Shown in pieces: positions 2,459 through 25,712 of a stretch of 35,897 bases of DNA; position 1 is the first letter of the stretch; each line of letters starts with the position of its first letter. The translations under genes and the position numbers were made by a program. The notes below the pieces were generated by a model, which saw only the letters and a program-made list of their open reading frames with translations, made no database searches and had not been told where the DNA came from. The stretch spans positions 1,223 to 37,119 of the forward strand of contig JAGQRV010000020.1 of assembly GCA_020425125.1 (NCBI GenBank). The letters are read 5' to 3'. The DNA is from Paracoccaceae bacterium (lineage in GTDB: Bacteria; Pseudomonadota; Alphaproteobacteria; Rhodobacterales; Rhodobacteraceae).

Positions 2459-2480
2459 GGGCGTTCCCTTCGTGGCAGTC

Positions 2481-4226: not shown

Positions 4227-4261
4227 TCGGCTCCTCCCGCGCGATCTGGATTTCGGATGCT

Positions 4262-4290
4262 GTGTATGCGCATACATAAACAGGTGTCAA
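4262..4290 (-). promoter_or_regulatory. Candidate promoter of the leftward dehydratase operon
   Basis: On the minus strand TTGACA (4290-4285) is a perfect -35 box. About 17 nt downstream lies ATACAC/TACACA as a weak -10, inside the 14-bp palindrome at 4263-4276. A repressor on the palindrome would block this promoter. The -10 is poor, so the exact box is uncertain. Confidence 0.5.
4263..4276. promoter_or_regulatory. 14-bp perfect palindromic operator, site 1
   Basis: TGTATGCGCATACA is perfectly self-complementary with a central CG-containing core, the form typical of LacI-family operators. It lies in the divergent region between the dehydratase operon and the TTT transporter operon. That transporter operon is followed by a LacI-family gene at 7632-8675, the likeliest binder. 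Confidence 0.7.
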
Positions 4291-5536: not shown

Positions 5537-5554
5537 GCGCCGCACGATCCGCGC

Positions 5555-5587
5555 GGGCGCCGGCGCCGGGGAGGACGGCCGGCGCCC
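5555..5587 (+). other. Strong intercistronic hairpin between tctC and tctB
   Basis: GGGCGCCGGC (5555-5564) and GCCGGCGCCC (5578-5587) form a perfect 10-bp GC stem with a 13-nt loop, 18 nt after the binding-protein stop. There is no U-tract. Such hairpins after binding-protein genes are known to protect the upstream mRNA or partly stop transcription, keeping the binding protein in excess over membrane subunits. Confidence 0.65.
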
Positions 5588-5630
5588 ACAGGTTTCCGTA
5601 TCGCCACGTATCTCCGGGAGGGACGACACC

Positions 5631-6050
5631 ATGGGCAGCCTGACCCATGTCACGGTGAATTTCGCGACATCGCATCTGATCTTTCCGACGCTGATCGCCG
5701 GCATCCTGGCGCTGCTGGGGCTCGCCATCCTGATCACCAAGCGCCACGCCATCGCCGGCAGCGGCGCCTATTGGCAGGGCATCCTTTCCGCCATGGACCG
5801 GGTGCGCTTCCTCGGCGCCGTCGCGCTCACGGTGCTCTACTTCCTGCTGATGGTCCCGGTCGGCGACCACTGGCCGAATACCGGCCTGGGCTTCCTGATC
5901 TGTTCGATCCCGTATGTCTTCCTGACCGGCGCGCTGTTCCTGCACCGGCGCGGCGCGCGGGATCTGATCCCGGTCGCACTCACCGCGGCCGTCGCGCCGA
6001 CGCTGGTCTGGTGGCTGTTCACCGACCTCTTCTTCCTGACGCTGCCCTGA
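5631..6050 (+). CDS. TTT transporter small membrane subunit (TctB family)
   Basis: A 139-residue inner-membrane protein with about four hydrophobic segments: near residues 14-35, 58-75, 83-105 and 113-137. This is the size and layout of TctB/DUF1468 subunits. It has a clear GGGAGGGA ribosome site. It lies between TctC and TctA, 25 bp before the latter, so the transporter is complete. Sequence conservation in this family is low, and the call rests on size, hydrophobicity and position. Confidence 0.83.
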   Translation: MGSLTHVTVNFATSHLIFPTLIAGILALLGLAILITKRHAIAGSGAYWQGILSAMDRVRFLGAVALTVLYFLLMVPVGDHWPNTGLGFLICSIPYVFLTGALFLHRRGARDLIPVALTAAVAPTLVWWLFTDLFFLTLP

Positions 6051-6074
6051 GCCGGCACGAGCCAAGGGATCCCC

Positions 6075-7577
6075 ATGGACCTGTTTGACATCGTCACGCC
6101 GCTGTTCCTGTCGCTGATCGTCGGCGGCACCTTCGTCGGCATCATCTTCGGCGCCATTCCCGGCATGACCGCCACCATGGCCGTGGCCGTCTGCCTGCCA
6201 CTGACCTATTCGCTGGGCCTCAACAACGGGCTCGCGCTGCTGCTGGGCCTCTATGTCGGCGGGATATCGGGCGGGCTGGTTCCCGCAATCCTGCTCGGAA
6301 TACCGGGCACGCCATCCTCGATCACCACCTGTTTCGACGGCCATCCGATGACCAAGGCGGGCGAGGGCGAGAAGGCGCTCAGGATCGGCATCGTCGCCTC
6401 GCTGGTGGGCGGCCTGATCAGCCTGCTGATCCTCGATCTGTTCGCGCCGGTGCTGGCCGAGTTCGCGATCCAGTTCTCGTACGTGGAGAAATTCCTGATC
6501 ATCCTCTTCGCGCTGAGCGTCATGGCGGCGCTGAGTTCGGACATGCTGATGGGCATCTTCTCGGGCTTCCTGGGCATCTTCATCAGCCTGATCGGCACCT
6601 ACAGCATCGAGTCGGGCGGCAACGGCGAGATCCGGCTGATCCCGCCTGGTATGGAGAACTGGCTGGAAAGCGGCTTTTCCCTGCTGCCGGTGCTGATCGG
6701 GCTGTTCGGTCTGGCTGCGATCCTCGAGGAAGCCGAGAAGGGCGTGCCGGAAAGCATGTCGGCCAAGGACGTCAAGATCGGCGCGGCCTCGACCTTTTCC
6801 TTCGGCATCTTCCGCAACCAGATCGGCAACCTGATCCGGTCGTCGTCCATCGGCACCTTCGTCGGCATCCTTCCCGGCGTCGGCGGCTCGGCGGCCTCGA
6901 TCCTGGCCTATACCGGTGCCAAGACCTTCTCGAAGCATCCCGAGACCTTCGGCAAGGGCGAGCCTGCGGGGATCGTCGCGTCGGAATCGGGCAATAACGG
7001 CCTGACCGGCGGGGCGCTGGTGCCGCTGCTGTCGCTGGGCATTCCGGGCGACTCGACGACGGCGCTGCTGATCGGCGCCTTCACGCTGCAGGGCGTTCAG
7101 GTCGGGCCGCTCTTCATCGGCGAGAATCCCCGGACCTGGGACGCGATGATCATCGCCATGCTGGTCGCCAACTTCGCCATGTTCGGGATCATGTACTTCG
7201 CGATCCGCTTCATGGCGCGAGTGGTCACGGTGCCGAAGCCGATCCTGTTCCCGATCATCCTGATGATGTGCGTGATCGGTGCCTACACGATCAATTACGG
7301 CATCATGTTCGACGTCTGGACGCTGCTGATCTTCGGGCTCTTCGGCTGGGCGGCGGTGAAGGTCGGGATCGAGGTCGCGCCCTTCATCATCGGCTTCATC
7401 CTCGGGCCCTCGGCCGAGATCTACTTCGTCAAGAGCCTCGAATCCTTCGGCGACCTGACCATCTTCTTCACCAAGAGCTGGATCGCCATCTTCCTGTGGG
7501 TGCTGATCGCGGGGTCGATCGGCGGGTCGGCGATGCTGGCGCGCAAGCGGCGGATGCAGGAGGCCTTCGCGGAATGA
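6075..7577 (+). CDS. TTT transporter large permease subunit (TctA family)
   Basis: A 500-residue polytopic membrane protein with about twelve hydrophobic segments, the channel-forming component of the TTT system. The two family signatures are present: GAIPGMTATMAVAVCLPLT around residues 28-46 and GILPGVGGSAASILAYTGAK around 263-282. These come from the two inverted halves of the protein. The loop LLGIPGTPSSITTCFDGHPM near residue 75 is also typical. The start follows AAGGGATCCCC. The next gene, a LacI-family regulator, follows within 54 bp. Confidence 0.93.
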   Translation: MDLFDIVTPLFLSLIVGGTFVGIIFGAIPGMTATMAVAVCLPLTYSLGLNNGLALLLGLYVGGISGGLVPAILLGIPGTPSSITTCFDGHPMTKAGEGEKALRIGIVASLVGGLISLLILDLFAPVLAEFAIQFSYVEKFLIILFALSVMAALSSDMLMGIFSGFLGIFISLIGTYSIESGGNGEIRLIPPGMENWLESGFSLLPVLIGLFGLAAILEEAEKGVPESMSAKDVKIGAASTFSFGIFRNQIGNLIRSSSIGTFVGILPGVGGSAASILAYTGAKTFSKHPETFGKGEPAGIVASESGNNGLTGGALVPLLSLGIPGDSTTALLIGAFTLQGVQVGPLFIGENPRTWDAMIIAMLVANFAMFGIMYFAIRFMARVVTVPKPILFPIILMMCVIGAYTINYGIMFDVWTLLIFGLFGWAAVKVGIEVAPFIIGFILGPSAEIYFVKSLESFGDLTIFFTKSWIAIFLWVLIAGSIGGSAMLARKRRMQEAFAE

Positions 7578-7631
7578 GTGCGACCGTCGTCACGCTTGCC
7601 TTCCCGCGCGGGACCGCGGACGGTACGCGCG

Positions 7632-8675
7632 ATGAGCGTGCATGACGACAGGCAGAAGACGGGGCGCGGCGGAACGTCGGCGCCCCGCGGTGTCACGATG
7701 GCGGCGGTGGGGCGGCTGGCGGGCGTAAGCCAGGTGACCGTCTCGCGCGCCCTGAGCGATCCGTCGAAGGTCTCGCCCGAGACGTTGCGGCGCATCCGGG
7801 AGGCGATCGAGGTCACGGGATACGTCCCGAACGCGGTTGCCGGGGCGCTCGCCTCGCGGCGGTCGAAGCTGATCACGGCCCTGGTGCCATCGATCACCAA
7901 CATCGTCTATTCGTCGATGATCCAGACCTTCACCGGCGAGCTCAGGGCGCAGGATTACCAGATCCTGATGTCCGAGACCGGCTTCGATCCGAAGGTGGAG
8001 GAGGCGGCCGTCGCCACGCACCTGTCGCGCCGGCCCGATGCGGTGCTTCTGACCGGAATCCACCACAGTCCGCAGACGCGGCGAATGCTGCTGGCGGCGG
8101 AAATTCCGGTGGTCGAGCTGTGGGACATCACCGACACGCCGATCGACCTCTGCGTCGGCTTTTCCCATGTGGAATCGGGCCGCGCGGTGGCGCGGTTTTG
8201 CCGCGAGGCGGGATATCTGCGCGCCGCGACCGTTTCGGCGGGCGACGAACGTGCGATCCGGCGCAAGGACGCGTTCGTGCGCGAATTCGGCCGCCCTGGC
8301 GGAGAGGCGGTGCAGGAAGTGACCTATGCGGGCTCGGCCAGTCTGGTGCGGGGCCGCGAGGCGCTGGTCCGGCTGCTGGACGAGGCCGGGTTCCGGAACG
8401 GGGTCGTGGTGTGCAGCTCCGACCTGCTGGCGCATGGGGTCGTGATCGAGGCGGCGGCGCGCGGGCTCGAGGTGCCCGGCGAGATCGCCGTGGTCGGGTT
8501 CGGCGACCAGGACTACGCCGCCCATATCGTGCCCAGCCTGACCACGGTGCGGGTCGACCGCGAGGCGCTGGGACGGGTGGCCGCACAGGCGATCCTGGCG
8601 CGGATCGAGGGCGGCGAACCGCCGCCGGCAGTGACCGATCTGGGCTTCGAGATCATCCGCCGCGAATCGGCCTGA
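7632..8675 (+). CDS. LacI-family transcriptional repressor (gluconate-repressor-like)
   Basis: About 347 residues. The N-terminal helix-turn-helix and hinge (residues about 21-78) read VTMAAVGRLAGVSQVTVSRA followed by TGYVPNAVAGALASRRS. A periplasmic-binding-protein-like effector domain follows, with LVPSITNIVYSSMIQ at its start and VVGFGDQDYAAHIVPSLTTV near the C-terminus. It is the last gene of the transporter unit and probably represses both this unit and the divergent dehydratase operon through the palindromes at 4263 and 4372. The effector is presumably a sugar acid or its 2-keto-3-deoxy derivative. Start choice is uncertain: an in-frame GTG at 7578 lies 14 nt after AGGAGG, while the ATG at 7632 has only a weak site but begins just before the HTH. 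Confidence 0.87.
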   Translation: MSVHDDRQKTGRGGTSAPRGVTMAAVGRLAGVSQVTVSRALSDPSKVSPETLRRIREAIEVTGYVPNAVAGALASRRSKLITALVPSITNIVYSSMIQTFTGELRAQDYQILMSETGFDPKVEEAAVATHLSRRPDAVLLTGIHHSPQTRRMLLAAEIPVVELWDITDTPIDLCVGFSHVESGRAVARFCREAGYLRAATVSAGDERAIRRKDAFVREFGRPGGEAVQEVTYAGSASLVRGREALVRLLDEAGFRNGVVVCSSDLLAHGVVIEAAARGLEVPGEIAVVGFGDQDYAAHIVPSLTTVRVDREALGRVAAQAILARIEGGEPPPAVTDLGFEIIRRESA

Positions 8676-9834: not shown

Positions 9835-10857
9835 ATGGACATATATGAACAAATATGCCGGATGGTGCTGATCGCGGACGACCTGACCGGCGCGCTCGAT
9901 GCCGCGGCGCCCTTCTGTGGCGCCGGGCGGCGGGTGGCCGTTGCCACCAGGCTCGATGCGCTGCCGGCCGCGCTGGCCGAAAGGGCGCAGGTCACCGCGG
10001 TCTCGACCCGGTCGAGGGAAGTTCCTCCCGAGGTCGCGGCGGCGCGGGTTCGCGAGGTCGTGGCTGCGGTGGGCGCCGACCGGCCGATCTTCAAGAAGAT
10101 CGATTCCCGCCTGAAGGGGCCGATCGCCGCCGAACTGTCCGCCTTGCCCGACCGGCCGCTTCTGGTGGCACCGGCCATTCCCGCCTTCGGGCGGGTCGTC
10201 GCGGACGGGGCGGTGCAGGGCTTCGGGGTGGCGCGGCCGATCCCGGTTGCGCCGCGGCTCGGCACCGCGGCGGCGCGTGCGGCGATTCCGGAGACGCCCG
10301 ACGAGGCCGCGATGGATGCGGCGCTTGCCGCGGCGCCCGCCGCGGCCATTCTGGTGGGTGCGCGCGGTCTCGCTCAGGCGATGGCGCGGCAGGCGCGGCT
10401 GACCGCGGCCGTGCCGGATCCGCTGTCGGGCAGGATCGCCGTCGCGGTCGGCTCGACCGATCCGATCACGCTGGCGCAACTGGCCCGGCTTGAGCGGACG
10501 CCGTGTCTCGCGGCGCCATCGGGGTCCTATGCCGGGCCGATTCCGGAGGCGGCGTCGCTGGTGATGCAGGCAGTGCCGGGGCCGGAGGCCGACGGGGCGA
10601 CGATCGCGCGCAATCTGGCCCGGTCGTTCCGTCCGCTCGCGGAGCGGAGCGATGCGCTGATCCTGACCGGCGGTGCAACGGCGGAGGCGGTGCTCGACGC
10701 GCTCGACGTGACGCTGCTGACGCTCGAAGGAGAGATTCTGCCCGGATTGCCACTTTCGCGTGCGGGTGGGTGGCGTATTGTCACCAAGTCCGGCGGGTTC
10801 GGCGATCCGGGGACACTTGCGGAACTGGTGGAAGGACAGGGGGCGTTGGCGGGATGA
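9835..10857 (+). CDS. Four-carbon acid sugar kinase family protein (DUF1537, DtnK/OtnK type)
   Basis: A 340-residue ATP-dependent kinase. Characterised members phosphorylate the 4-OH of D-threonate or D-erythronate. The substrate-binding half has ADDLTGALDAA at 14-24 and FKKIDSRLKGP at 86-96. The nucleotide-binding half has AVGSTDPIT at 204-212, LTGGATAEAVL at 277-287 and VTKSGGFGDP at 316-325. All signature blocks are present, but the protein is shorter than the usual 400-430 residues, mainly in the middle. The start is not settled: neither the ATG at 9835 nor the in-frame ATG at 9862 has a clear ribosome site. The PdxA2-like gene at 13709-14653 would supply the next step. The stop overlaps the GntR start by 4 bp. 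Confidence 0.83.
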   Translation: MDIYEQICRMVLIADDLTGALDAAAPFCGAGRRVAVATRLDALPAALAERAQVTAVSTRSREVPPEVAAARVREVVAAVGADRPIFKKIDSRLKGPIAAELSALPDRPLLVAPAIPAFGRVVADGAVQGFGVARPIPVAPRLGTAAARAAIPETPDEAAMDAALAAAPAAAILVGARGLAQAMARQARLTAAVPDPLSGRIAVAVGSTDPITLAQLARLERTPCLAAPSGSYAGPIPEAASLVMQAVPGPEADGATIARNLARSFRPLAERSDALILTGGATAEAVLDALDVTLLTLEGEILPGLPLSRAGGWRIVTKSGGFGDPGTLAELVEGQGALAG

Positions 10858-11579
10858 CGACGGGCAGGGCGCCGGTTCCGGAGGGCGTGAAGCAGCGCAA
10901 GAGCCTGGCCGAAGTGGTCTTCGAGCGGATGCACCGGGCGATCAAGTCCGGCGCCTACGCCCCGGATGAACGGCTGCCGACCGAGCACGACCTGGCGGCG
11001 GAGTTCCAGGTCTCGCGCCCGGTCGTGCGCGAGGCGCTGAAGAAGCTGAGGGACCAGCGGCTGATCTATTCGCGCCAGGGAGCGGGAAGCTTCGTCGCGC
11101 AGCTCGGCGTCAAGGAGCCGCTCGGGTTCGGTGCGGTCGAGAGCCTGGCGGATCTGCGGCGCTGCTACGAGTTCCGCGAAGTGATCGAGCCGGCGAGCGC
11201 TGCGGTCGCGGCCGAGCGGCGCACCGCCGAGGATCTGGTCGAAATCCGCCGCGCGCTCGACGTGATGCGCGACGCCACGGAACGGCGGCGCCACCGCGAG
11301 GACGCCGACTACGAATTCCACCTCGCCATCGCGAAGGCCACCGGCAACCAGTATTTCTGGACCGCGATGGAGGCGCTGAAGGATCATATCGCCGTGGGGA
11401 TGCAGTTCCACGGCATGTCGCTCAAGCACACGATCGACGGGCTCGCGCAGGTCTACGACGAACATGTCTCGATCTACGAGTCGATAGCGGGGCAGCGGCC
11501 CGACGAGGCGCGCCGGCGGATGGCGGCGCATCTGGCAGGCTCGCGCGAGAGGCTGTTCGAGGGGCAGGGCGGGCAGTAG
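10854..11579 (+). CDS. GntR-family regulator, FadR/FCD subfamily
   Basis: A 241-residue repressor-type regulator. The winged HTH covers about residues 15-85, with DERLPTEHDLAAEFQVSRPV and VREALKKLRDQRLI. The all-helical FCD effector domain follows, with metal/ligand-type residues in DADYEFHLAIAKATGN, YDEHVSIYESI and RMAAHLAGSRE. Its ATG overlaps the kinase stop as ATGA, so translation is coupled and it probably answers to the kinase's pathway. The facing operon at 11606-15780 is a plausible second target. A longer in-frame extension upstream would lie entirely within the kinase and is rejected. Confidence 0.88.
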   Translation: MTTGRAPVPEGVKQRKSLAEVVFERMHRAIKSGAYAPDERLPTEHDLAAEFQVSRPVVREALKKLRDQRLIYSRQGAGSFVAQLGVKEPLGFGAVESLADLRRCYEFREVIEPASAAVAAERRTAEDLVEIRRALDVMRDATERRRHREDADYEFHLAIAKATGNQYFWTAMEALKDHIAVGMQFHGMSLKHTIDGLAQVYDEHVSIYESIAGQRPDEARRRMAAHLAGSRERLFEGQGGQ

Positions 11580-11590
11580 CCGCCCCGCCC
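11567..11590. terminator. Possible hairpin between convergent GntR and alcohol dehydrogenase genes
   Basis: GGGCGGG (11567-11573) is complementary to CCCGCCC (11584-11590) with a 10-nt loop. It spans the GntR stop codon and sits just past the end of the facing alcohol dehydrogenase gene. It could act on both strands, but there is no U-tract. Confidence 0.3.
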
Positions 11591-11605
11591 GCTGACGCGG
11601 CGACC

Positions 11606-12727
11606 CTAGTAGGCGGCCCGGTAAATCGTCAGGACATCGTCGACAGACATCTCGCGCGGATTGTTGTCCATCAGGCGCCGGATGCCGTGGGCTTCCTCGG
11701 CCCAGGCGGGCAGCGCATTGTCGACCGCACCGTGCGCCGACAGCCGCATCTCGTTGCCGAGGTCGCGGCAGAAGCCGTGGGTCGCCTCGAGCACGTGGTC
11801 CGGCTCGGGCGTGTCGGGCAGGCCGAGCAGGGACAGGATTTCGGCCGTCTTGGCTTCACGCGCCGGTGCATTGAAGGCCAGCACATGGGGGAAGATGATC
11901 GCATTCGCCAGGCCGTGCGGCAGGTGAAGCCGGGTGCCGAGCGGATAGGCGAGCGCATGGCCGGCGGCGGTGTTCACCGGGCCGAGGCAGATGCCGCCGT
12001 AATAGCTGGCCAGCATCATTCCCTCGCGCGCCTCGGTGTCGGTGCCATCCTCGACCGCGCGGCGAAGGTAGCGGCCGACGAGGTCGATCCCCATGCGCGC
12101 GAAGCCGTCGATCATGTCGTGGGCGCGGCGGTTGGTGAACGCCTCCACGCAATGCGCCATCGCATCGACGCCGGTCGCGGCGGTGACGGCTGCCGGCACG
12201 GTCCAGGTGAGTTCGGGGTCGAGAACGGCGAGGTCGGCGCGCATCAGCGGGCTTTCCACGGCCATCTTGGCATTGGTCGTGGAATCGGTGATCAGCGCGC
12301 GAATTCCGGCCTCCGACCCGGTGCCGGCGGTGGTGGGCACCTGAGCGAGGCGTGACAGCTTTGCCGCGACCCGGTCGGGGCCGACCACCTCGGCGAGGGT
12401 CTGGCGCCCGTCCCAAAGCACGGCGACGAGCTTGGCGACATCCATCACCGACCCGCCGCCGAGGCCGATCACCAGATCGGGGCGGAAATCGGCCGCGACG
12501 GCCAGTGCGGCGGCCAGCGCCGTGTCGTCGGGCTCGGGCGGAACGTCGCTGAAGACGCGGACGTCGCCGCCGAGTCCCAGCCGCTCGACAAGGCCGGCGA
12601 CCGCCGGCGCGGTGATGACGAGGCTGCGCGCGGCACCGGCGGCCCAGGCGCCGACACGGGAGACGGCACCGGCGCCGATGTCGAGACGCGACGGCTGGTG
12701 AAGCGTGATGAGGCGGTCCATGGCCAT
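11606..12727 (-). CDS. Iron-containing (group III) alcohol dehydrogenase
   Basis: A 373-residue NAD(P)-dependent alcohol/aldehyde oxidoreductase, related to lactaldehyde reductase and maleylacetate reductase. The nucleotide loop GLGGGSVMDVAK is at about 88-99. The four metal ligands are visible as Asp188 and His192 (GVDAMAHCVEAF), His257 (AAGHALAYPLG) and His271 (LPHGLANAI). PTTAGTGSEA at 131-140 is the family signature, and the C-terminus NNPREM...IYRAAY is typical. The ATG at 12727 has AAGGA upstream; in-frame ATGs further upstream overlap the preceding gene. Last gene of the leftward unit, 25 bp after the DapA-fold gene. It may reduce an aldehyde released by that enzyme or oxidise the entering alcohol-acid; the substrate is unknown. 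Confidence 0.88.
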   Translation of the reverse strand: MAMDRLITLHQPSRLDIGAGAVSRVGAWAAGAARSLVITAPAVAGLVERLGLGGDVRVFSDVPPEPDDTALAAALAVAADFRPDLVIGLGGGSVMDVAKLVAVLWDGRQTLAEVVGPDRVAAKLSRLAQVPTTAGTGSEAGIRALITDSTTNAKMAVESPLMRADLAVLDPELTWTVPAAVTAATGVDAMAHCVEAFTNRRAHDMIDGFARMGIDLVGRYLRRAVEDGTDTEAREGMMLASYYGGICLGPVNTAAGHALAYPLGTRLHLPHGLANAIIFPHVLAFNAPAREAKTAEILSLLGLPDTPEPDHVLEATHGFCRDLGNEMRLSAHGAVDNALPAWAEEAHGIRRLMDNNPREMSVDDVLTIYRAAY

Positions 12728-12752
12728 TGGGATGATCCTTGCCCTGCGGGTT

Positions 12753-13712
12753 TCAGGCCGACAGCCGGTCCATTTCGGACCAGACGTTCTCGCGTTCTGC
12801 ATCGGAGAGCGGCGCCAGCGGCGGGCGGACATTGAGCCAGGCATCGTTGCCGCGGGCCTTCGCGACCATCGCCTTCACCGTGGGCAGTTGCACATAGGTG
12901 TTGGTCAGGCTGCGCCAGGCGTTGATCCGGTCCTGGGCAGCGGCGACCTCGGCCTCGGCGGTCGGGTCGGCCCATTTCTCCCAGATGGTTCTCAGCGCAT
13001 CGGCGCGCAGGTTCGAGGTGGCGGTGATGCAGCCCTGGCCGCCGCCGCGCAGGAGCGGGAGCAGCAGCGGATCGGCGCCCGCCAGCACCGAGAAGCCGGG
13101 GAAGCGCGCCACCATCGCGGCCATGTTGCCGAGATCGCCGGCGCTGTCCTTGATCCCGACGACGATGCCGGGGAAGGCGTCGAGCAGCCGCGCGATCAGG
13201 TCGTGGCCGATCGGCACCTGGGTGACCTGCGGAATATGGTAGAGGACCAGCCGCAGCCGGTCGTCTCCGACGCCCTCGATCACCGAGGCGTAGAAGCGGA
13301 ACAGGCCGTCGTCGCTGACGCCCTTGTAATAGAAGGGCGGCAGCATCACGCATCCCAGCACCCCATGGTCCACCGCGTGACGCGTGAGGGCGACGGATTC
13401 GGGGATGTTGCAGCTCGACGTTCCGGGAAGCAGCTGGGGACCGGCGATCCCGCTGTCCCGCGCCGCGTCGAGCAGCGCCATCCGCTCGGCGACCGAGAAG
13501 CTGTTCGCCTCGCCGGTGGTGCCCAGAAGGGCGACGCCGTGGCAGCCCTCGCGCAGCAGCGCCTGGGCGTGCGCGGCGAAGAGGTCGAGCCGTGGCGCGC
13601 CGTCCGGCCCGACCGGCGTGGTGGCGGCCGAAAAGACGCCGGAGATCGGGCCGGTCGCCGCGCCGGTCTTCGCGGCGGTGGAGGCCGCATCGAGGGTCGT
13701 GGTGGTCATCAT
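12753..13712 (-). CDS. DapA-fold lyase/dehydratase, substrate unknown
   Basis: A 319-residue class I aldolase-fold enzyme. GTTGE is at 64-68, Tyr158 lies in VLYHIPQVT and the Schiff-base Lys188 in [10 protein letters not shown]. The KDSAGD context is the classic one for this family's lyases, unlike the KW of the copy at 1535-2458. About 20 extra N-terminal residues are rich in Ala and Thr. The first ATG overlaps the PdxA-like stop as ATGA; the second ATG, three bases on, is better spaced from GGGAGG and may be the real start. An aldolase step on a keto-deoxy acid feeding the neighbouring alcohol dehydrogenase is plausible; true dihydrodipicolinate synthesis is unlikely in this context. Confidence 0.82.
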
Positions 13713-14653
13713 GTCCTCCCTGCCGCGAGGCGGCGGGCATAGGCGATCGCCTCCAGCATGTTGTCGTGTTTCGCGATGCCCCGGCCTGCAATGTCGAAGG
13801 CGGTGCCGTGATCGACCGAGGTGCGGTCGATCGGGAGCCCGATGGAGACGTTCACCGCGGTGTCGAAGGCGACGAGCTTGATCGGGATGTGCCCCTGGTC
13901 GTGATAATTCGCGACGACCAGGTCGAAGGCGCCGTTATAGGCGCGGTGGAAGAGCGTGTCCGCCGAGATCGGCCCGGTGACGTCGATGCCGTCGGCGCGT
14001 GCCATTTCGATCCCCGGCACGATGAGTCGGTCATCCTCGTCGCCGAAGAGGCCGTTCTCGCCGCAATGGGGGTTCAGGCCCGAGACTGCAATCCGCGGCC
14101 TGTCGTAGCCGATCCGGCGCAGGTGGTCGTGCCCGGCCCGGACCGTGTCGCGGATACGTTCGGGCGAGGTCCGCGCGATCGCATCCTTCAGCGACACGTG
14201 GGTCGAGGTGTGGATGACCTTCAGCCGTTCGGAGGCGAGCAGCATGAACGCTCCCTTCTGGCCGGTCAGCGCGGCCAGCATCCCGGTATGGCCGTCGTAG
14301 TGGTGCCCGGCGGCGTTCAGCGCCTCCTTGTTGATCGGCGCGGTGACGATGCAGCCGATCTCGCCCGCCTCGGCGGCCCTGACCGCCGCCTCGATGAAGC
14401 GGAAGGCGGCGTCGCCGGCGCGAGGGTCGAGCCGGCCCATGGGCAGCGGGCCGTCCGCGACGGGCAGGTCGGTCACGGCGATGTCGGTTGCCGGGTCGAG
14501 CGGGCTGCCGATCATCCCGGCCACCGCCTGCAGCGTGGCGAGATTGCCGAAGACGCGGGTCTGCGCCCGATCCAGCGGCGACATTGCGGCCACGGCCTTC
14601 AGGATGATCTCCGGTCCGACCCCGGCGGGGTCGCCCATCGTGATGCCGATCAT
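13709..14653 (-). CDS. pdxA2: PdxA2-like 4-phospho-D-threonate/D-erythronate 3-dehydrogenase
   Basis: A 314-residue NAD- and divalent-metal-dependent beta-hydroxyacid dehydrogenase that oxidises the C3 hydroxyl of a 4-phosphorylated acid with decarboxylation. Metal histidines are His152 (STHVSL), His196 (LNPHCGENG) and His282 (SVDHGTAFD). [10 protein letters not shown] at 6-15, TAPINKEAL at 104-112 and [10 protein letters not shown] at 248-257 are family blocks. True PdxA makes pyridoxal phosphate. Here the catabolic setting and a DUF1537 kinase 3 kb away point to the PdxA2 role, giving dihydroxyacetone phosphate and CO2. It overlaps both neighbours by 4 bp, so the operon is translationally coupled. 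Distinguishing PdxA from PdxA2 by eye is not certain. Confidence 0.8.
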
Positions 14654-15780
14654 TGGGTTCCTCCGATTTCGGATGGCGCGAGCCGGACATGGGCAATCGC
14701 CCGGCGGTGCAGGGTGAAGGCGACGTCGAGGCTGCCGTCGGGCGCCTCGGCGAGGGCGGGATAGGACAGCTCCTGGTTCTTGCCGTCGGTGCTGATGTTG
14801 GACAGGCAGGTTCCGGCACTGTCCGCGACCACGACCTGGTGGTCGAAGCTGAGGCCGTCATCCGAGGAGAAGGCCACCACGAGGGGCGCGCGCGGGACGC
14901 CCCAGACCGGCGTGCAGCCGCCGGTCGCCTCGGGGCGGTCGTCGTCGCCCAACTCGTCGTAGAGCGATGCGCGGCGTTCGGGCGACATGGCGCCGTTGAT
15001 GGGGTTGCAGGCCAGCGCGATGCGGCCGTCCGACAGCCGGATCGCGGCGATCGACGAATTGTTGTTCGGCACCGGAGTCGGCGCCGGCACCGACCAGCTT
15101 TCGCCGCCGTCGCGGCTTTCGCTGCGGTAGACGAAATCGGCCTGACGGCGGCGGAACAGCGCGACGAGGCAGTCCTGTCCGGGCACCAACGTCATGTGCA
15201 CGCAGCCCGTGGAGTCCGGCACCGGAACGAGCCGCCAGTTCTGGCCCGCATTGGCGCTGATCGCGACCGAGGCGGTGTCATGGCGTCCGGTCCAGCGCGC
15301 GCCGTCCTGCGCCGTGCAATGGAAGAGCGGCAGCAGCCACGCGCCATCGCTGCGGACATGCGGCGCAGCGCGGACGAACGTGCCCTGCGGCAGCGGCAGG
15401 TCCGCGGGGGAGCTGCCGATCTCGCGCATCCTGACAACGCATCGATCCTGATCGCCGCCCGGCTGCGCCGTGTGGATCAGGCATGTCCGGCCGTCCGGTG
15501 CGTGAAACAGGATCGGGTTCTGTTCGGAGCGGTCCGGGTCGTCGGTCAGCTTTTCGGCCGGTCCCCAGCCGGTGCCGCCAAGGCGGCTGCGATAGACGCA
15601 GATGTCTGCCTTGCCTTCCAGGCTGCCGCCGAACCAGACGCAGTCCAGCCCGTCCGGGCCCTGCGCCAGAAATGCGGCGTGGTTCTGGATCATGGGCGAC
15701 GGCAGGAGTGCGATCCCCGCTTCGGGCCGGCCGGTCATCCGTGCCGCGATCGACTCCGGCGAGGTTGGGAATTGGCGCAT
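14650..15780 (-). CDS. Sialidase-fold (BNR-repeat) protein without signal peptide
   Basis: About 376 residues of the six-bladed sialidase/neuraminidase superfamily. BNR/Asp-box-like motifs are SRDGGESW near residue 232 and the degenerate SANAGQNW and [30 protein letters not shown] and [21 protein letters not shown] are typical blade segments. I see no export signal, so it is predicted cytoplasmic, unusual for a sialidase. The true sialidase arginine triad could not be confirmed. The ATG at 15780 is chosen because the in-frame extension to 15909 is AT-rich and lysine/phenylalanine-rich, unlike coding DNA here; there is no strong ribosome site. First gene of the leftward operon, coupled to pdxA2 by a 4-bp overlap. 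It may be a glycan hydrolase, lyase or lactonase-like enzyme. Confidence 0.72.
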
Positions 15781-16024
15781 GTCTGCTGTCTCTCGACTTC
15801 GTTCTGACTTGTCGTGCAAGATGCTGATGAATTTGAAGTTGTCAAGTTGATCTGAATAGTTTCTCCTGAACTGGATAGAGAAATATCTAAGAACCATCAG
15901 AAAAAACACAATAAAAAATTCATCAGCGATTGGAATCCTCGCGCCATTCCGAATCTAGTTGACAAATCAGATGGAGTGATGTCTTGTCCGGCATGCCGGA
16001 TCAGGCCGGCGGCGGGGGAATGGC
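15781..16024. promoter_or_regulatory. AT-rich divergent intergenic region, BNR operon/EamA gene
   Basis: A 244-bp region clearly richer in A+T than the flanking genes. It carries two TTGACA -35-like boxes facing outward: minus strand 15845-15840 and plus strand 15959-15964. The boxes sit in inverted copies of TTGTCAAnTnGAT, so one regulator might bind both. Neither has a good -10 at the expected spacing. An A-rich run lies at about 15900-15920. Confidence 0.4.
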
Positions 16025-16903
16025 ATGCGCGACAGATCGGCGATGTACGGAGTGCTTCTGATGCTGCTCGTGGCATTGATGAGCGCCGCCGATGCCGTCG
16101 TCGTCCGAATGCTGTCGGGCCAGATCCACCCCTTCGTCATCGGCTTCACCCGCACGACCTTCGGCCTTCTGGCCATGCTGCCCTGGATCTTGCGCCATCC
16201 TCACATCCTGCGGACGCGGCGCGTGGGTGTGCATGTGCTGCGGGCGGCGCTCAAGCTCGGCTCGCTGGTGGCCCTGTTTGCCGCGCTCGGAGGCGCGCCG
16301 CTCGCATCGGTGACGGCAATCGGTTTTGCCGCGCCGATCTTCGTCTCCGTAGGCGCGTGGGTCTTCCTGGCTGAATTGCCGCGCCCGATGCGAATCACGG
16401 CGGCGGCGATCGGATTTGTGGGGGTGATGGTCATTCTGCGCCCGGCCATGGAGGGGGGGGCGGCAGCGGTCGCCCTGTGGCTGGCCCTGCTGTCGGCGTC
16501 GCTGACTGCGGCCATCCAGCTCATTCTCAAGGTCATCGGCCGCACCGAGCGCGCTGAGACCCTCGTCGCTTGGAACCTGATCGCCTCGGTCCCGCTGGCG
16601 CTTGGGCCCGCTCTCTGGTTCTGGACTCCGCCGACAGCGGCGCAGTGGGGACTGCTTGCGTTCCAGGGGGCGCTGGGCGCGCTCAATCAGGGCTGTGTTA
16701 CCCGCGCGCTTCAGCTTGCCGACGCGTCGCTGGTGGCGCCGATCGACTTCCTGCGTCTGCCGCTGGTGGCGGTGCTGGCCTACGCATTCTTCGGCGAAGT
16801 CGCCAATCCCGCGACCTGGGTGGGGGCGGCGCTGATCGTGTCGGCGGTGGCGCTGATGGCAGCGACAACGCGCGGGGTCTCGCGCCCGAATGATGTTGCC
16901 TGA
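16025..16903 (+). CDS. EamA/DMT-superfamily transporter
   Basis: A 292-residue inner-membrane protein with about ten hydrophobic segments in two five-helix halves, the layout of drug/metabolite exporters. The first half ends at VGVMVILRPA near residue 140; the second ends with WVGAALIVSAVALMAATTR. GFTRTTFGLLAMLPWIL near 38-54 and LVAPIDFLRLPLVAVLAY near 237-254 are the equivalent conserved segments. GGGGGA precedes the start. A run of eight G at 16453-16460 lies in codons 143-146. The substrate is unknown. The gene stands between two catabolic operons and may export an intermediate, but nothing in the sequence shows which. Confidence 0.87.
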   Translation: MRDRSAMYGVLLMLLVALMSAADAVVVRMLSGQIHPFVIGFTRTTFGLLAMLPWILRHPHILRTRRVGVHVLRAALKLGSLVALFAALGGAPLASVTAIGFAAPIFVSVGAWVFLAELPRPMRITAAAIGFVGVMVILRPAMEGGAAAVALWLALLSASLTAAIQLILKVIGRTERAETLVAWNLIASVPLALGPALWFWTPPTAAQWGLLAFQGALGALNQGCVTRALQLADASLVAPIDFLRLPLVAVLAYAFFGEVANPATWVGAALIVSAVALMAATTRGVSRPNDVA

Positions 16904-17089: not shown

Positions 17090-18592
17090 GTGAAACTATC
17101 AGTCTATCTGGGGGCGAGTCTGATCTCGCTGGCCGCAGCGGTGCCGGCACTTGCCGCGAACACCGATATCACCATCGTGCTCAACGAGGAGCTCGAGGTG
17201 CTCGAACCCTGCATGACCTCGCAGTCGAATATCGGCCGCGTGTTGCTGCAGAACGTGTCCGAGACGATGACCGAGCTGAACCCGACGAACGGCGAGCTGA
17301 TGCCGCGCCTTGCGGAAAGCTGGGAAGACCAGGGCAACGGCACCTGGCGCTTTCATCTGCGCGATGGCGTGACCTTCTCGGACGGAACCGGCTTCGACGC
17401 CGAAGATGTCAAGCACTCCATCGAGCGCACCCTGTCGCCCGACCTGACCTGCGAGATCGGCGCCAAGTTCTTCGGGGGCATGAAGATCACCCCGACGGTG
17501 GTCGATGCGCACACGATCGACATCACCGCCGATCCGGCCCAGCCGATCCTGCCGCTCTTGATGTCGACGCTGACCATCGTGCCGGCCGAGACCCCGATGG
17601 AATTCACCCGCGATCCGGTCGGAACCGGTCCCTACAAGCTGACCGAATACAATGTCGGGCAGAATATCATTCTGGACCGGCGCGACGATTACTGGGGCAC
17701 GGCGCCGGCGGTGAGCAAGGCGACCTATGTCTTCCGCACCGACGATGCCGTCCGCGCGGCCATGGTGGCCACCGGCGAAGCCGACATCGCGCCGCTGATC
17801 AACCAGATCGATGCCACCAATCCGAAGACCGATTTCGCCTATCCGAACTCGGAAACCACCTACCTGCGGATCGACAGCGCGATCCCGCCGCTCAACGACG
17901 TGCGCGTCCGCAAGGCGCTGAACCTCGCGGTGGATCGCGAAGCGTTCCTGGGCACGCTGATCCCCGAAGACGCCAAGATCGCCACGCACATGGTGCCGCC
18001 GTCGACGCTAGGCTGGAACGCCGACCTGAAGGCCTGGCCCTACGATCCCGAAGAAGCGAAGAAGCTTCTGGCCGAGGCCAAGGCCGATGGCGTGACGGTC
18101 GACACCCAGATCGAACTGATCGGGCGGACGGGGAACTTCCCGAACGTGACCGAGGTGATGGAAGCGCTGCAGCAGATGTTCAGCGATGTCGGCTTCAACA
18201 CCAAGCTGCAGATGTACGAAGTGGCAGAGTGGGTGAAGCTCTACTCGAAGCCCTTTGCCGAGGACCGTGGCCCCCGCATCGTCGAGGCCATGCACGACAA
18301 CAACCGCGGCGACCCGGTCTTCTCGATGTACTTCAAGTATGCCTGCGACGGCCTGCAATCGGGCGTCTGCGACCACGAGCTTGACTCGATGATCGCCGAG
18401 GCCACCGCGGCCACCGGAGACGAGCGCGCCCAGAAATGGAGCGAGATCTTCAAGATGGTGCACGAGGATCTCGTCGCCGACGTGTTCCTGTTCCACATGG
18501 TCGGCTTCAGCCGGGTGTCCGAGCGGCTCGACTTCACGCCCACCATCGCCACGAACTCGGAACTGCAGCTGTCGCAGATCGGGTTCAAATAG
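17090..18592 (+). CDS. Dpp-type ABC transporter substrate-binding protein (SBP_bac_5 family)
   Basis: A 500-residue secreted binding protein. The Sec signal covers about residues 1-22 (hydrophobic, ending VPALAA). The mature protein shows family blocks ELMPRLAESWEDQGNGTWRF at 70-89, FSDGTGFDAEDVKHSIER near 97-114, PVGTGPYKLTEY near 178-189 and NDVRVRKALNLAVDREAF near 267-284. The start is GTG, directly after a strong AGGAGGAGG. It begins a complete transporter operon. Proteins of this family bind peptides but also oligosaccharides and sugar acids. The downstream and co-regulated aldarate genes suggest a carbohydrate-derived ligand, which the sequence cannot prove. Confidence 0.9.
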   Translation: MKLSVYLGASLISLAAAVPALAANTDITIVLNEELEVLEPCMTSQSNIGRVLLQNVSETMTELNPTNGELMPRLAESWEDQGNGTWRFHLRDGVTFSDGTGFDAEDVKHSIERTLSPDLTCEIGAKFFGGMKITPTVVDAHTIDITADPAQPILPLLMSTLTIVPAETPMEFTRDPVGTGPYKLTEYNVGQNIILDRRDDYWGTAPAVSKATYVFRTDDAVRAAMVATGEADIAPLINQIDATNPKTDFAYPNSETTYLRIDSAIPPLNDVRVRKALNLAVDREAFLGTLIPEDAKIATHMVPPSTLGWNADLKAWPYDPEEAKKLLAEAKADGVTVDTQIELIGRTGNFPNVTEVMEALQQMFSDVGFNTKLQMYEVAEWVKLYSKPFAEDRGPRIVEAMHDNNRGDPVFSMYFKYACDGLQSGVCDHELDSMIAEATAATGDERAQKWSEIFKMVHEDLVADVFLFHMVGFSRVSERLDFTPTIATNSELQLSQIGFK

Positions 18593-18605
18593 GGGTCCTC
18601 CCCCG

Positions 18606-18636
18606 GGGAACGGCGCGGCCTCGTCGCACCGTTCCC
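18606..18636 (+). other. Intercistronic hairpin after the ABC binding-protein gene
   Basis: GGGAACGG (18606-18613) pairs with CCGTTCCC (18629-18636), and after one mismatch GCG/CGC extends the stem, leaving a 7-nt loop. It is 13 nt after the stop and 29 nt before the permease start, without a U-tract. This is the same arrangement as the hairpin after the TTT binding protein and fits differential expression of the binding protein. Confidence 0.6.
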
Positions 18637-18665
18637 GCAACCATCGGACCACCCGGAGAACCGGA

Positions 18666-19580
18666 ATGAGACAATTCCTTGCCAGACGCGCCGTCGCCAG
18701 CCTGGTGTCGCTTGCCTTTCTCGTGATCGCGGTCTTCTTCCTGTCGCGCCTGACCGGCGACCCGACCGACCTGTACCTTCCGGTCGATGCCAGCCTCGAG
18801 GCGCGGGAACAGTTCCGCCAGCTGCATGGCCTGAACGACCCGCTGATCGTGCAGTTCTGGCACTATCTCAAGGATCTCGCGGTCCTGGATTTCGGCGAGT
18901 CGATCCGCCGTGCCCGGCCGGCGCTCGACGTCGTTCTCGAAGCCTTCCAGTGGACCCTGGCGCTGGCGCTGAGCACCATGGCGCTGGTCACCGTTTCGGC
19001 CATCGTGATGGGTGCGCTTGCCGCCTTCCATGTCGGCGGCGTCTTCGACCGCATCGCCACCTTCTTCTCGCTGATCGGGGCGAGCGCGCCGGACTTCTGG
19101 ATCGCCATCGTCGCGATCGTGGTCTTCTCGGTGCAGCTCGGCTGGCTGCCCACGTCGGGGACGGGGACGCCACTGCACTGGGTGCTGCCCATCGCGGTCC
19201 TCTTCATCCGGCCTTTCGGCCTGATCCTGCAGGTGGTGCGGGGGTCGATGATCACCGCGCTCGGCTCGGCCTATGTCAAGACGGCGCGGGCCAAGGGCGT
19301 CGCCGCGCGGCCGATCATCTTCGTCCACGCCCTGCGCAATGCCATGCTTCCGGTGATCACCGTGATCGGCGACCAGCTGGCGGGGATGCTGAACGGCGTG
19401 GTCATCGTCGAGACGGTGTTCGGCTTCCCCGGCATCGGCAAGCTGATGATCGACTCGATCCTGCAGCGCGATTTCTCGGTCATCCTGGCCTCGATCATCG
19501 TGACCGCCATGGCGATCTTCATCATGAACCTGCTGATCGACATGGCCTATGCCGTCCTCGATCCCCGAATCCGGTACTGA
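18666..19580 (+). CDS. Dpp/Opp-type ABC transporter permease (DppB-like)
   Basis: A 304-residue inner-membrane permease with about six transmembrane segments. MRQFLARRAVASLVSLAFLV at the N-terminus, then a periplasmic loop with REQFRQLHGLNDPLIVQFWH, is the DppB pattern. The cytoplasmic EAA loop that docks the ATPase is YVKTARAKGVAARPIIFVHA near residues 203-222. VVIVETVFGFPGIGKLMIDSI follows. It is preceded by GGAGAA. DppB-like members average slightly over 300 residues, so it looks complete. Confidence 0.93.
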   Translation: MRQFLARRAVASLVSLAFLVIAVFFLSRLTGDPTDLYLPVDASLEAREQFRQLHGLNDPLIVQFWHYLKDLAVLDFGESIRRARPALDVVLEAFQWTLALALSTMALVTVSAIVMGALAAFHVGGVFDRIATFFSLIGASAPDFWIAIVAIVVFSVQLGWLPTSGTGTPLHWVLPIAVLFIRPFGLILQVVRGSMITALGSAYVKTARAKGVAARPIIFVHALRNAMLPVITVIGDQLAGMLNGVVIVETVFGFPGIGKLMIDSILQRDFSVILASIIVTAMAIFIMNLLIDMAYAVLDPRIRY

Positions 19581-19583
19581 GAG

Positions 19584-20510
19584 ATGACGATGGTTCAGAC
19601 CACTCCCCTCCGGGAAGCCCGCTCAAAGGGACGCCTGGCAACCACCTGGTCCCTGCTCTGCGCCGACAAGTTCGCGCTGGCCGCGGCCATCATCCTGACG
19701 ATCGTCGTGCTGTGCGCCGTGTTCGGGCCCATGTTCCTGGGCGAGCAGGCCAGCCACCAGAACCTGCGCGGCCGCAACGCGCCGCCCTTCGATCTGGCCA
19801 AGGGCTGGCTCTACGTCCTGGGCGGCGACCAGCTGGGCCGGCCGCTTCTCGCGCGCATCGTCGTGGCGGCCCAGAACACAATGGCCATCGCGACCGGTGC
19901 GGTTCTCGCCTCGATGACCATCGGCGGGACGCTGGGCCTGATCGCGGGCAATTCCCGCGGGCGGGCCGGACAGATCATCCCGCGGCTTGCCGACGTGATC
20001 ATGTCGTTCCCGTCGCTCCTGCTTGCGGTGATCGTCCTCTACATGCTCGAGCCGTCGGTCAAGAACATCATCATCGTGCTGGCGATCACCCGGATCCCGG
20101 TCTACCTGCGCACGACCCGCGCCGAGATCCTCGAGATCCGCGAGCGGATGTTCGTGCAGGCCGCCAAGGTCATGGGCGCGTCCGAGTTCCGCATCGTCTT
20201 CCGCCACATGCTGCCGGTGATCCTGCCGACGCTGATCACCATCGCGACGCTCGACTTCGCCTTCGTGATGCTGGCGGAAAGCTCGCTCTCGTTCCTCGGC
20301 ATCGGCATCCAGCCGCCCGAGATCACCTGGGGCCTGATGGTCAGCCAGGGCCGGCCCTACCTGACAACCGCCTGGTGGCTGTCCTTCTGGCCGGGACTTG
20401 CGATCATCCTCGCCACGCTGAGCCTGAATCTACTGTCCAACTGGATGCGCGTCGCGCTCGATCCGCAGCAACGCTGGCGCCTGGAAATCGGAGGCCGCAA
20501 GAATGGCTGA
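19584..20510 (+). CDS. Dpp/Opp-type ABC transporter permease (DppC-like)
   Basis: A 308-residue permease with a cytoplasmic N-terminal stretch, one transmembrane anchor around residues 30-52, and a further five or so segments. The EAA loop is YLRTTRAEILEIRERMFVQA followed by AKVMGASEFRIVFRHMLPVI, near residues 173-212. LAESSLSFLGIGIQPPEITWG is the classic DppC segment. The start is 3 bp after the DppB stop; ATG at 19590 is an alternative. The last codons overlap the start of the ATPase gene by 8 bp. Confidence 0.93.
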   Translation: MTMVQTTPLREARSKGRLATTWSLLCADKFALAAAIILTIVVLCAVFGPMFLGEQASHQNLRGRNAPPFDLAKGWLYVLGGDQLGRPLLARIVVAAQNTMAIATGAVLASMTIGGTLGLIAGNSRGRAGQIIPRLADVIMSFPSLLLAVIVLYMLEPSVKNIIIVLAITRIPVYLRTTRAEILEIRERMFVQAAKVMGASEFRIVFRHMLPVILPTLITIATLDFAFVMLAESSLSFLGIGIQPPEITWGLMVSQGRPYLTTAWWLSFWPGLAIILATLSLNLLSNWMRVALDPQQRWRLEIGGRKNG

Positions 20511-22122
20511 CCATCTGCTCGAGGTTCGGAACCTGTCCGTCACCTTCCATACGGCCCGCGGTCCCGTCCATGCCGTGCGCGACGTGAACTGGCACCTGGA
20601 TCGCGGCGAAGTGCTGGCGATCCTCGGCGAAAGCGGATCGGGCAAGTCGGTGTCGGCCTCCGCGATCATGGACCTGATCGATTGTCCGCCGGGCGAGATC
20701 ACGTCGGGCCGGATCCTGTTCGACGGCCGTGACCTGCTGACGATGTCCCGCGAGGAGCGCCGCCACATCAACGGCAAGCGCATCGCGATGATCTTCCAGG
20801 ACCCGCTGAGCCATCTGAACCCGGTCTACACGGTCGGCTGGCAGATCGAGGAGACCATGGTCATCCACGGCACCTCGCGGCAGGAGGCGCGGCAAACCAC
20901 CGTCGACCTCCTGCGCAAGGTCGGCATTCCCGACCCGGAGGCCTCGGTGCACAAGTATCCGCACCAGTTCTCGGGCGGCCAGCGGCAACGGCTGATGATC
21001 GCCATGGCGCTCGCCCTGCGCCCGGACGTGCTGATCGCGGACGAGCCGACGACGGCGCTCGACGTTACCGTGCAGGCGCAGATCCTGGCGCTTCTAGAGG
21101 AACTGCAGCGCGAAACCGGGATGGGCCTTCTCATCATCACCCACGACCTGGGCGTGGTGGCCGAAGTCGCCGACCGGGTCGTCGTGATGAACGCGGGCGA
21201 GATCGTCGAAGCGGGCGAGGCGAGCGAGGTCTACCATAACCCGAAGCACCCTTATACGCGGAAGCTGATCGCCGCGGCGCCGGGGCAGGGAGAGATGTCG
21301 TCGGGCGTCGAGGAGGGAGCGCCGCTTCTGAGCCTGCGCAACGTGAGCAAGCGCTACGGTACCTTCGAGGCACTCAAGGGCGTGAGCTTCGACCTGATGC
21401 CCGGCGAGACCGTCGCCGTGGTGGGCGAAAGCGGGTCGGGCAAGTCGACCACGGCCAAGGTGCTGCTGCGCCTGGAGGAGGCAAGCGGCGGAAGCGCGAT
21501 CTACAAGGGCCGCGACCTGTTCACACTGTCCCCGCGCGAGCTTTATGAGATGCGGCGGGACATCCAGATGGTGTTCCAGGATCCGACGCAAAGCCTCAAT
21601 CCGCGGATGTCGGTTTATGCACTGATCTCGGAGGCCTGGGTGATCCATCCGGGCATCGTCGAAAGGTCGCGCTGGCGCGCGCGGGTCGCCGAGCTGCTGG
21701 AGCAGGTGGGGCTTCTGCCCGAGCACATGTACCGATATCCACACCAGTTCTCGGGCGGTCAGCGGCAGCGCATCGCGATTGCCCGCGCGCTGGCGCTGGA
21801 GCCGCAGATCATCGTCTGCGACGAGGCGGTTTCGGCACTCGACGTGTCGATCCAGGCGCAGGTCATCGCGCTGCTCGACCGGCTGCAGGATGAACTCGGG
21901 ATCAGCTTCATCTTCATCGCCCACGACCTTCCGGTGGTGCGCGACTTCGCTGACCGGGTCATCGTGATGCAGGGCGGGCGGATCGTCGAACAGGGCGATG
22001 TCCGGCAGATCTTCGAGGCCCCGCGGGAGCCCTATACGCAGGCGCTTCTGGCTGCGAGCCTTGATCCCGATCCCGAGATACAGGCCGAGCGCCGCGCCAG
22101 ACGCCTGGAGGCCGCAGAATGA
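20503..22122 (+). CDS. Fused double ABC ATPase (DppD-DppF type)
   Basis: A 539-residue ATPase with two complete nucleotide-binding domains in one chain, energising the Dpp-type transporter. Domain 1: Walker A GESGSGKS at 42-49, signature FSGGQRQR at 156-163, Walker B VLIADEP near 176-182. Domain 2: Walker A GESGSGKS at 308-315, then FSGGQRQR and Walker [13 protein letters not shown]. The HPYTRKL and [10 protein letters not shown] tails of both domains match the C-terminal oligopeptide-transporter extension, though the cysteine motif that binds Fe-S in some members is absent. It overlaps the DppC gene by 8 bp and the next gene by 4 bp, so the operon is tightly coupled. Confidence 0.94.
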
Positions 22123-25010: not shown

Positions 25011-25712
25011 ATGGAAACGTCAGAAGGCGGTGTCGGCGGCCGCCATGCGCTGGTGACCGGTGCGAGTTCGGGAATCGGGCGGACCATAACCGAGGCACTT
25101 CTGGCCAGCGGTTGGCATGTGACGGGGATCAGCCGTTCTGAGCCCGAATTCGATCACCCGGACTTCTGCTTTGTTCCGGCCGACCTGCTGGATGCGGCCG
25201 CGACCGATGCCGCATTGACGGAGATCGCGCAGGTCGATGCGGCGATCCACGCCGCCGGCCTGTTGCGCGTCGGCCGGCACGACGAGATGGATCTTGCCGA
25301 AGGGGCCGTCATGTGGCGCCTTCATGTGGATGCGGCGGCGCGGATGATCCAACACACGGCCCCGCGGATGCCCGACGGCGGGCGGATCGTGCTGATCGGC
25401 AGTCGCGTGGCCAATGGGGCTGCGGGCCGAGCGCTCTACGCGGCATCGAAAGCGGCACTTGTGGGGCTTGGCCGCTCCGTGGCGGCGGAACTTGCGCCGC
25501 GCCGGATCACCGTCAACATCGTCGCGCCCGGTGCCACCGACACGCCGATGCTGCGGGACCCCGCGCGGGCAAGCGAAGCGCCACGCCTGCCGCCGATGGG
25601 CCGCCTTGTCCGCCTCGACGAGGTCGCCGGCACGGTGGCGTTCCTGCTGTCACCCAGCGCGGGCGCGATCACCGGACAGAGCATCACGATTTGCGGCGGC
25701 GGTTCGCTTTGA
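25011..25712 (+). CDS. Short-chain dehydrogenase/reductase (SDR)
   Basis: A 233-residue classical [11 protein letters not shown] at 16-23 binds NAD(P). The catalytic residues are Ser131 (IGSRVANG), Tyr143 and Lys147 (YAASKAAL). [13 protein letters not shown] and [14 protein letters not shown] are the usual C-terminal blocks. It opens the operon with the enolase-superfamily dehydratase and KdgD, so it could oxidise an incoming uronate, aldose or lactone precursor to the aldarate, or interconvert a hydroxy and keto sugar acid. It is not of the known uronate dehydrogenase type, which belongs to the extended SDR group. GAAGGGAAG stands upstream of the chosen ATG. Confidence 0.87.

Follow-up and report, generated by a model that had tools for sequence, protein, structure and literature searches.

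The question raised by this locus is why the genes for a DUF1537 four-carbon acid sugar kinase and a PdxA2-type 4-phosphate dehydrogenase lie together with genes for a BNR_2/sialidase-fold protein (BNR), a DapA-fold lyase and an iron-containing alcohol dehydrogenase (Fe-ADH) in a 35,897-nt stretch from a Paracoccaceae bacterium (contig JAGQRV010000020.1, positions 1223–37119), hereafter the window, which was drawn from a 4.0-Mb genome and to which, as a whole, all coordinates refer. The five enzyme families, which the initial annotation had named from the letters alone, are present as described, with Pfam support for each call (Table 1). The kinase and a GntR/FadR-type regulator are encoded on the plus strand, facing the minus-strand genes, among which BNR and PdxA2 as well as PdxA2 and the DapA-fold gene overlap by 4 nt, with the Fe-ADH gene 25 nt further on. 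The reading that best fits these families and their conservation is that of a D-threonate-type end-module to which a pyruvate aldolase, an aldehyde reductase, the sialidase-fold protein and an ABC transporter have been added upstream, and the view that this extension would serve the uptake and catabolism of a seven-carbon 2-keto-3-deoxy-aldarate is one that we favour with moderate confidence. The expectation of the initial annotation that the substrate is larger than a four-carbon acid is thereby retained.

In the proposed route, the substrate would be imported through the SBP5-type ABC transporter, probably as a conjugate, and BNR would free or prepare the acidic sugar, so as to present a cytoplasmic seven-carbon 2-keto-3-deoxy-aldarate (4,5,6-trihydroxy-2-oxoheptanedioate). 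Cleavage of this substrate by the DapA-fold enzyme would yield pyruvate and a four-carbon aldehyde-acid, whose aldehyde group would be reduced by the Fe-ADH to give threonate (or erythronate); the kinase would then phosphorylate the newly formed C4 hydroxyl, and PdxA2 would oxidise and decarboxylate the phosphorylated acid to dihydroxyacetone phosphate (DHAP). We infer each of these reactions, the seven-carbon diacid and the role of BNR from sequence-level evidence, namely protein families, operon structure, conservation, the replacement of one enzyme pair by another and the D-threonate-type match of a Pantoea locus (L054).

The replacement of the aldolase/reductase pair was observed in 72 loci, obtained by a BNR scan with one genome per species and scored with hidden Markov models (HMMs) built from clusters of the open reading frames (ORFs) of these same loci, under cut-offs of our own (DapA 150, aldo-keto reductase (AKR) 300, SDR 250, others 60 bits) which divergent members may escape. 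By our own sorting, 16 of the 72 loci are actinobacterial; 14 of these carry an HpcH/HpaI aldolase with an AKR, and none a DapA-fold protein or Fe-ADH. The other 56 loci contain DapA-fold and Fe-ADH together in 46 cases, HpcH with AKR in none, HpcH alone in two and AKR alone in six. Among the 60 loci with both kinase and PdxA2, 57 carry one pair or the other, either DapA-fold and Fe-ADH (44, none actinobacterial) or HpcH/HpaI and AKR (13, all actinobacterial). Since the same slots thus appear to be filled by two unrelated pyruvate-releasing aldolase families and two unrelated reductase families, the pattern points to retro-aldol cleavage with release of pyruvate, followed by reduction of the aldehyde. 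The initial annotation had proposed cleavage of a larger substrate into a four-carbon acid and an aldehyde; the cleavage is kept here, but from the swap the aldehyde is probably the precursor of the acid, with pyruvate as the other product.

The DapA-fold proteins themselves are diverse, with several motif types and about 30% identity between the window and rhizobial members, and the Lys motif is found in every member except two fragments of 157 aa, which suggests that the aldolase step has been kept while the enzyme changed. The window protein contains the Schiff-base Lys and Tyr motifs (VGIKDSA and YHIPQVTQ); it falls below the dapA model TIGR00674 (124 bits vs a cut-off of 206) and has no Arg in its Tyr motif, where DapA proper (4-hydroxy-tetrahydrodipicolinate synthase) is expected to have one. 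An apparent lack of DapA in rhizobial operons was traced to an identity threshold, as the gene lies at the end of the transporter operon.

The HMM counts among the 72 BNR loci were 63 for the kinase, 61 for PdxA, 60 for both, 49 for Fe-ADH and 46 for the DapA-fold protein, and the transport genes were represented by SBP5 proteins (47), SSF (16) and TctC (7). All five enzymes are found together in Alpha-, Beta- and Gammaproteobacteria, and the second aldolase/reductase pair is that of Actinobacteria. Twenty control stretches of 20 kb, cut from five BNR-positive genomes at round-number coordinates, contained no kinase, PdxA, DapA-fold, HpcH or BNR match, and a Fe-ADH match occurred in one of them. 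The grouping of the cluster genes is not chance, and the proposal of a single pathway is borne out by these counts. A leftward operon that never accompanies the kinase, which would have counted against that proposal, is not what related genomes display: among 295 genomes of the same family, BNR (E<1e-30, which keeps 12 of the 16 genomes with E<=0.001 and drops four weaker ones) and a kinase ortholog (>100 bits, which keeps 14 of 56 with E<=0.001) occur together in 11 genomes, BNR alone in 1, the kinase alone in 3 and neither in 280 (Fisher p ~1e-16, phylogeny ignored). Of 13 same-family stretches (L092–L104, in three of which BNR is weak or repeated), 10 have both Fe-ADH and DapA-fold and 6 have both PdxA and the kinase, the kinase of L099–L101 lying just beyond the stretch fetched. 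The matches of L088 (Puniceibacterium sediminis) and L102, seemingly the same contig, come in pieces for BNR, Fe-ADH and DapA, suggesting broken genes or sequencing errors.

Two otherwise similar loci of related genomes (L106 and L107) lack BNR but retain the other four enzymes (kinase, PdxA2, DapA and Fe-ADH), next to genes for a TTT transporter, which argues that the four enzymes act together and that BNR probably acts upstream of them. The cluster also extends further than the five enzymes: the SBP5 gene is divergent from BNR in 29 of 29 loci (L020–L048), so the functional unit includes window positions 17090–22122, and the divergent SBP5-type ABC transporter encoded there, overlooked before, belongs to the cluster.

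The D-threonate-type end of the pathway is most clearly exhibited by the Pantoea locus L054, whose kinase (525.7 bits, cut-off 450) and PdxA2 (666.8, cut-off 583) both pass the D-threonate NCBIfam equivalog models. The window PdxA2 exceeds the PdxA family model TIGR00557 (351.7 vs 290.35 bits) and, against PDB sequences, scores 283–290 bits with 4jqp, 2hi1 and 6e85 (D-threonate 4-phosphate dehydrogenase by its entry name) and no more than 193 bits with any other PdxA entry; a second PdxA is encoded elsewhere in the window genome. The possibility of a truncated, dead kinase was set aside, as kinases of the short form, with an envelope of at most 357 aa, make up 35 of the 68 measured (a count in which L088 and L102 are one locus entered two times), and the conserved motifs are retained in the 21 kinases aligned. 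The window kinase scores higher on DtnK (97.7 bits) than on OtnK (56). The 3-oxo-tetronate route and the apionate route were both set aside, their partner genes not being seen among the annotated window genes and the kinase being nearer DtnK; LtnD, OtnI and OtnC were not seen among those annotated genes, no search having been aimed at them. The D-threonate-type ending that had been assumed is thus supported by L054 and by the PDB neighbours of PdxA2; the window proteins lie under the cut-offs, so that their own four-carbon acid may be D-threonate or another.

The BNR protein has the six-bladed sialidase fold and shares about 15% identity with GH33 sialidases. Sialidase catalysis pairs a Glu with a Tyr nucleophile; in BNR, His196 stands at the position of the catalytic Glu, in five of five printed HMMER alignments and invariantly in an alignment of 55 sequences covering part of the BNR loci (residue numbers here exceed those counted from the ATG by one), so that the protein departs from GH33 at this catalytic position. 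R211, R298 and Y341 are likewise invariant in these 55 sequences. No export signal was seen by eye, and when the BNR sequence alone was searched against PDB sequences, no match had an E-value under 0.07. Structural matches were nearly all sialidases among the best 50 rows, which leaves room for other fold families; a weak local match (E 0.053) was to 5mqr, which we take to be BT1020, the GH143 hydrolase of 3-deoxy-D-lyxo-2-heptulosarate (Dha).

These residues also feed the strongest of the competing explanations, an unlikely one in our judgement, in which BNR would be a His/Tyr/Arg lyase or dehydratase making the 2-keto-3-deoxy acid from a saturated seven-carbon aldarate or conjugate, the rest of the route being unchanged. 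Propeller lyases with His/Tyr exist, the invariant His196, R211, R298 and Y341 would suit such a chemistry, and the SSF and TctC genes of some loci suggest a small free acid; however, the argument is one of analogy in which the fold of BNR is the established part, and the usual dehydratases are enolase-superfamily or IlvD-type enzymes. A somewhat less probable explanation holds that BNR hydrolyses a threonate or erythronate conjugate, of which the kinase and PdxA2 take the four-carbon half, the remainder being broken down separately by DapA and Fe-ADH. The glycosidase fold of BNR agrees with this, as does the prevalence of SBP5-type transporters, the commonest type in the loci, whose substrates are peptides and oligosaccharides, but all four remaining enzymes persist beside a TTT transporter in L106 and L107, where there is no BNR to hydrolyse anything, and in 57 of the 60 loci with kinase and PdxA2 an aldolase/reductase pair goes along with them. 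Very improbable is a plain D-threonate/D-erythronate operon with unrelated neighbours, since, even though the kinase and PdxA2 are a known module and occur as a bare pair in L105, the five-enzyme set recurs in three proteobacterial classes with a second aldolase/reductase pair in Actinobacteria, and the control regions are nearly devoid of cluster genes.

Returning to the extended D-threonate-type module, a pyruvate aldolase and a reductase that yield 2,3,4-trihydroxybutanoate would imply a seven-carbon 2-keto-3-deoxy diacid as the substrate. Dha, a rare plant sugar of the pectin rhamnogalacturonan II (RG-II), is such a compound, and by our own Fischer-projection derivation on paper its C4–C7 fragment, once cleaved and reduced, would be D-threonate, with C5 and C6 of the D-lyxo configuration giving the D-threonate stereochemistry. 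A route so derived would employ every core enzyme of the cluster. Dha from RG-II is accordingly put forward as a tentative candidate, possible though short of probable, for which the L-arabinonate and galactarate dehydratase modules of the window could take care of the arabinose and galacturonate residues next to it. Gut-bacterial hydrolases cut most linkages of RG-II, according to a review (PMC12168206). Two other substrates were rejected, 3-deoxy-D-manno-oct-2-ulosonic acid (Kdo) because its aldol cleavage gives five-carbon arabinose that does not feed into kinase and PdxA2, and hexarates because they would give a three-carbon semialdehyde.

Several observations weigh against the proposed route. 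The window kinase scores 97.7 bits on the D-threonate kinase model NF047819 (cut-off 450) and the window PdxA2 313 bits on the D-threonate-4-phosphate dehydrogenase model NF002891 (cut-off 583); the actinobacterial locus L069 also misses both (kinase 126.7, PdxA2 354 bits), so that of the two outside loci scored on these models, only L054 passes. Within the stretches fetched, several of which end at contig ends, kinase and PdxA are both missing from eight of the 72 loci and one of the two is missing from four, and three loci (L026, L056 and L062) have kinase and PdxA but neither aldolase/reductase pair. The rhizobial- and Pantoea-type DapA-fold proteins have the Arg in the motif and reach 177–196 bits on the dapA model (cut-off 206), nearer to DapA than the window type, so a DapA-like reaction may apply to them. 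The scheme leaves the SDR (34 of the 72 loci, >250 bits) and the 2-hydroxyacid dehydrogenases of some loci unaccounted for, substrates are not settled by family matches, and the window genome contains no GH127 beta-L-arabinofuranosidase. In the 295 family genomes, GH127 was detected in 11 (E<=0.001), seven of them strong (>330 bits), and the strong matches fall in 3 of 12 BNR-positive vs 4 of 283 other genomes (p 0.0017, phylogeny ignored), a weak enrichment that is not used as support. In L101, a GH127 gene (14653–16659) is located about 4 kb from BNR, with a FecCD-type ABC transporter between them.

Table 1. Cluster genes and neighbouring features of the window, with the basis of each call.
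Feature	Coordinates	Strand	Basis and remarks
DUF1537 four-carbon acid sugar kinase, short form, 340 aa	9835..10857	+	Pfam SBD_N 75.5, NBD_C 67.9 bits
GntR/FadR-type regulator	10854..11579	+	Pfam GntR 65.9, FCD 91.3 bits; 4-nt overlap with kinase
Iron-containing alcohol dehydrogenase (Fe-ADH)	11606..12727	-	Pfam Fe-ADH 163.5 + 118.4 bits; putative reductase of four-carbon aldehyde acid
DapA-fold lyase	12753..13712	-	Pfam DHDPS 146.4 bits (PF00701); putative pyruvate aldolase
PdxA2-type 4-phosphate dehydrogenase, probably decarboxylating	13709..14653	-	Pfam PdxA 333.3 bits; TIGR00557
BNR_2/sialidase-fold protein	14650..15780	-	Pfam BNR_2 177.7 bits; ATG at 15780
EamA permease	16025..16903	+	Pfam; ORF cluster c15, 10 loci including window; between BNR and transporter in several relatives
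SBP5-type solute-binding protein of divergent ABC transporter	17090..18592	+	SBP_bac_5 256 bits; SBP5 in 47/72 BNR loci
ABC permease 1	18666..19580	+	Domain match and conserved order
ABC permease 2	19584..20510	+	Named from position and conserved order alone
Double ABC ATPase	20503..22122	+	Named from sequence inspection and conserved order alone
SDR	25011..25712	+	Homologous to SDR adjoining BNR in other groups; membership in cluster uncertain

Other genes of the window were also observed. A LysR regulator on the minus strand ends at 8784 and starts at 9776 (TTG) or, likelier by eye, at the ATG at 9743; its cluster has members in just nine loci including the window, and these do not always adjoin the kinase. 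The window SDR shares 48–62% identity with SDRs in distant BNR loci, and its relatives adjoin BNR in Pantoea, Azospirillum and Actinobacteria; in Bacillus (L049) a relative lies near BNR where kinase and PdxA are both missing. Downstream, a galactarate module (25736–26878 and 26917–27822) comprises an L-talarate/galactarate dehydratase over its cut-off (546 vs 500), followed by a KdgD-type enzyme (410 vs a subfamily cut-off of 278; 365.8 vs the KdgD equivalog cut-off of 374) and a 2-hydroxyacid dehydrogenase at 27819. At the other end, positions 1535–4277 encode an L-arabinonate dehydratase (1110 vs 882 bits) and then a DHDPS-family protein, likely for the next step of L-arabinose oxidation, and positions 4481–8675 encode a TTT-type transporter, with a LacI-family regulator after it; the transporter is made up of TctB, TctA and a secreted-looking protein for which neither Pfam nor NCBIfam gives a match above cut-off.

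The cluster looks like an undescribed route for acidic-sugar catabolism, and it recurs in many soil and plant bacteria. Among the open-access matches listed, judged by titles and the beginnings of abstracts, no bacterial catabolic route for Dha was recognised, nor any paper that joins a sialidase-fold protein and a pyruvate aldolase to the DUF1537/PdxA2 module, although the founding DUF1537 paper may mention related neighbourhoods. If correct, the reading provides an enzyme-by-enzyme hypothesis for a locus of rhizobia, Pantoea, mycobacteria and marine alphaproteobacteria, the highly conserved BNR group, whose name is merely sialidase-like, would gain a substrate class, and the four-carbon piece would enter glycolysis after its reduction.

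Comparison with known systems places the cluster among several partial likenesses. The 3-oxo-tetronate kinase route (OtnK/OtnC/OtnI) employs a DUF1537 kinase and delivers DHAP, as described in two papers (PMC12540250, PMC10580937). The cluster resembles that route in the kinase family and the expected product and differs from it in using PdxA2. The aldolases GarL (2-dehydro-3-deoxyglucarate) and HpaI (4-hydroxy-2-oxoheptanedioate), both of which act on 2-keto-3-deoxy diacids as the route would require, are the nearest models for the actinobacterial HpcH protein of L069, and the substrate of HpaI equals the proposed seven-carbon diacid minus two extra hydroxyls, but the L069 protein scores only 143 bits on GarL and 137 on HpaI, under cut-offs of 369–407, and is accompanied by an AKR, a kinase and PdxA2. 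A route of retro-aldol cleavage and aldehyde reduction that ends in glycerol and pyruvate shares both of these steps with the cluster, and has neither a tetronate nor a kinase/PdxA2 pair. Also close is the D-threonate pathway via DtnK and PdxA2, reportedly described in the DUF1537 paper of Zhang et al. in 2016, with which the cluster shares the kinase and PdxA2 families, their gene linkage and the expected DHAP end product, and from which it differs in the short form of the window kinase and in the addition of a transporter, BNR, a putative pyruvate aldolase and a putative aldehyde reductase.

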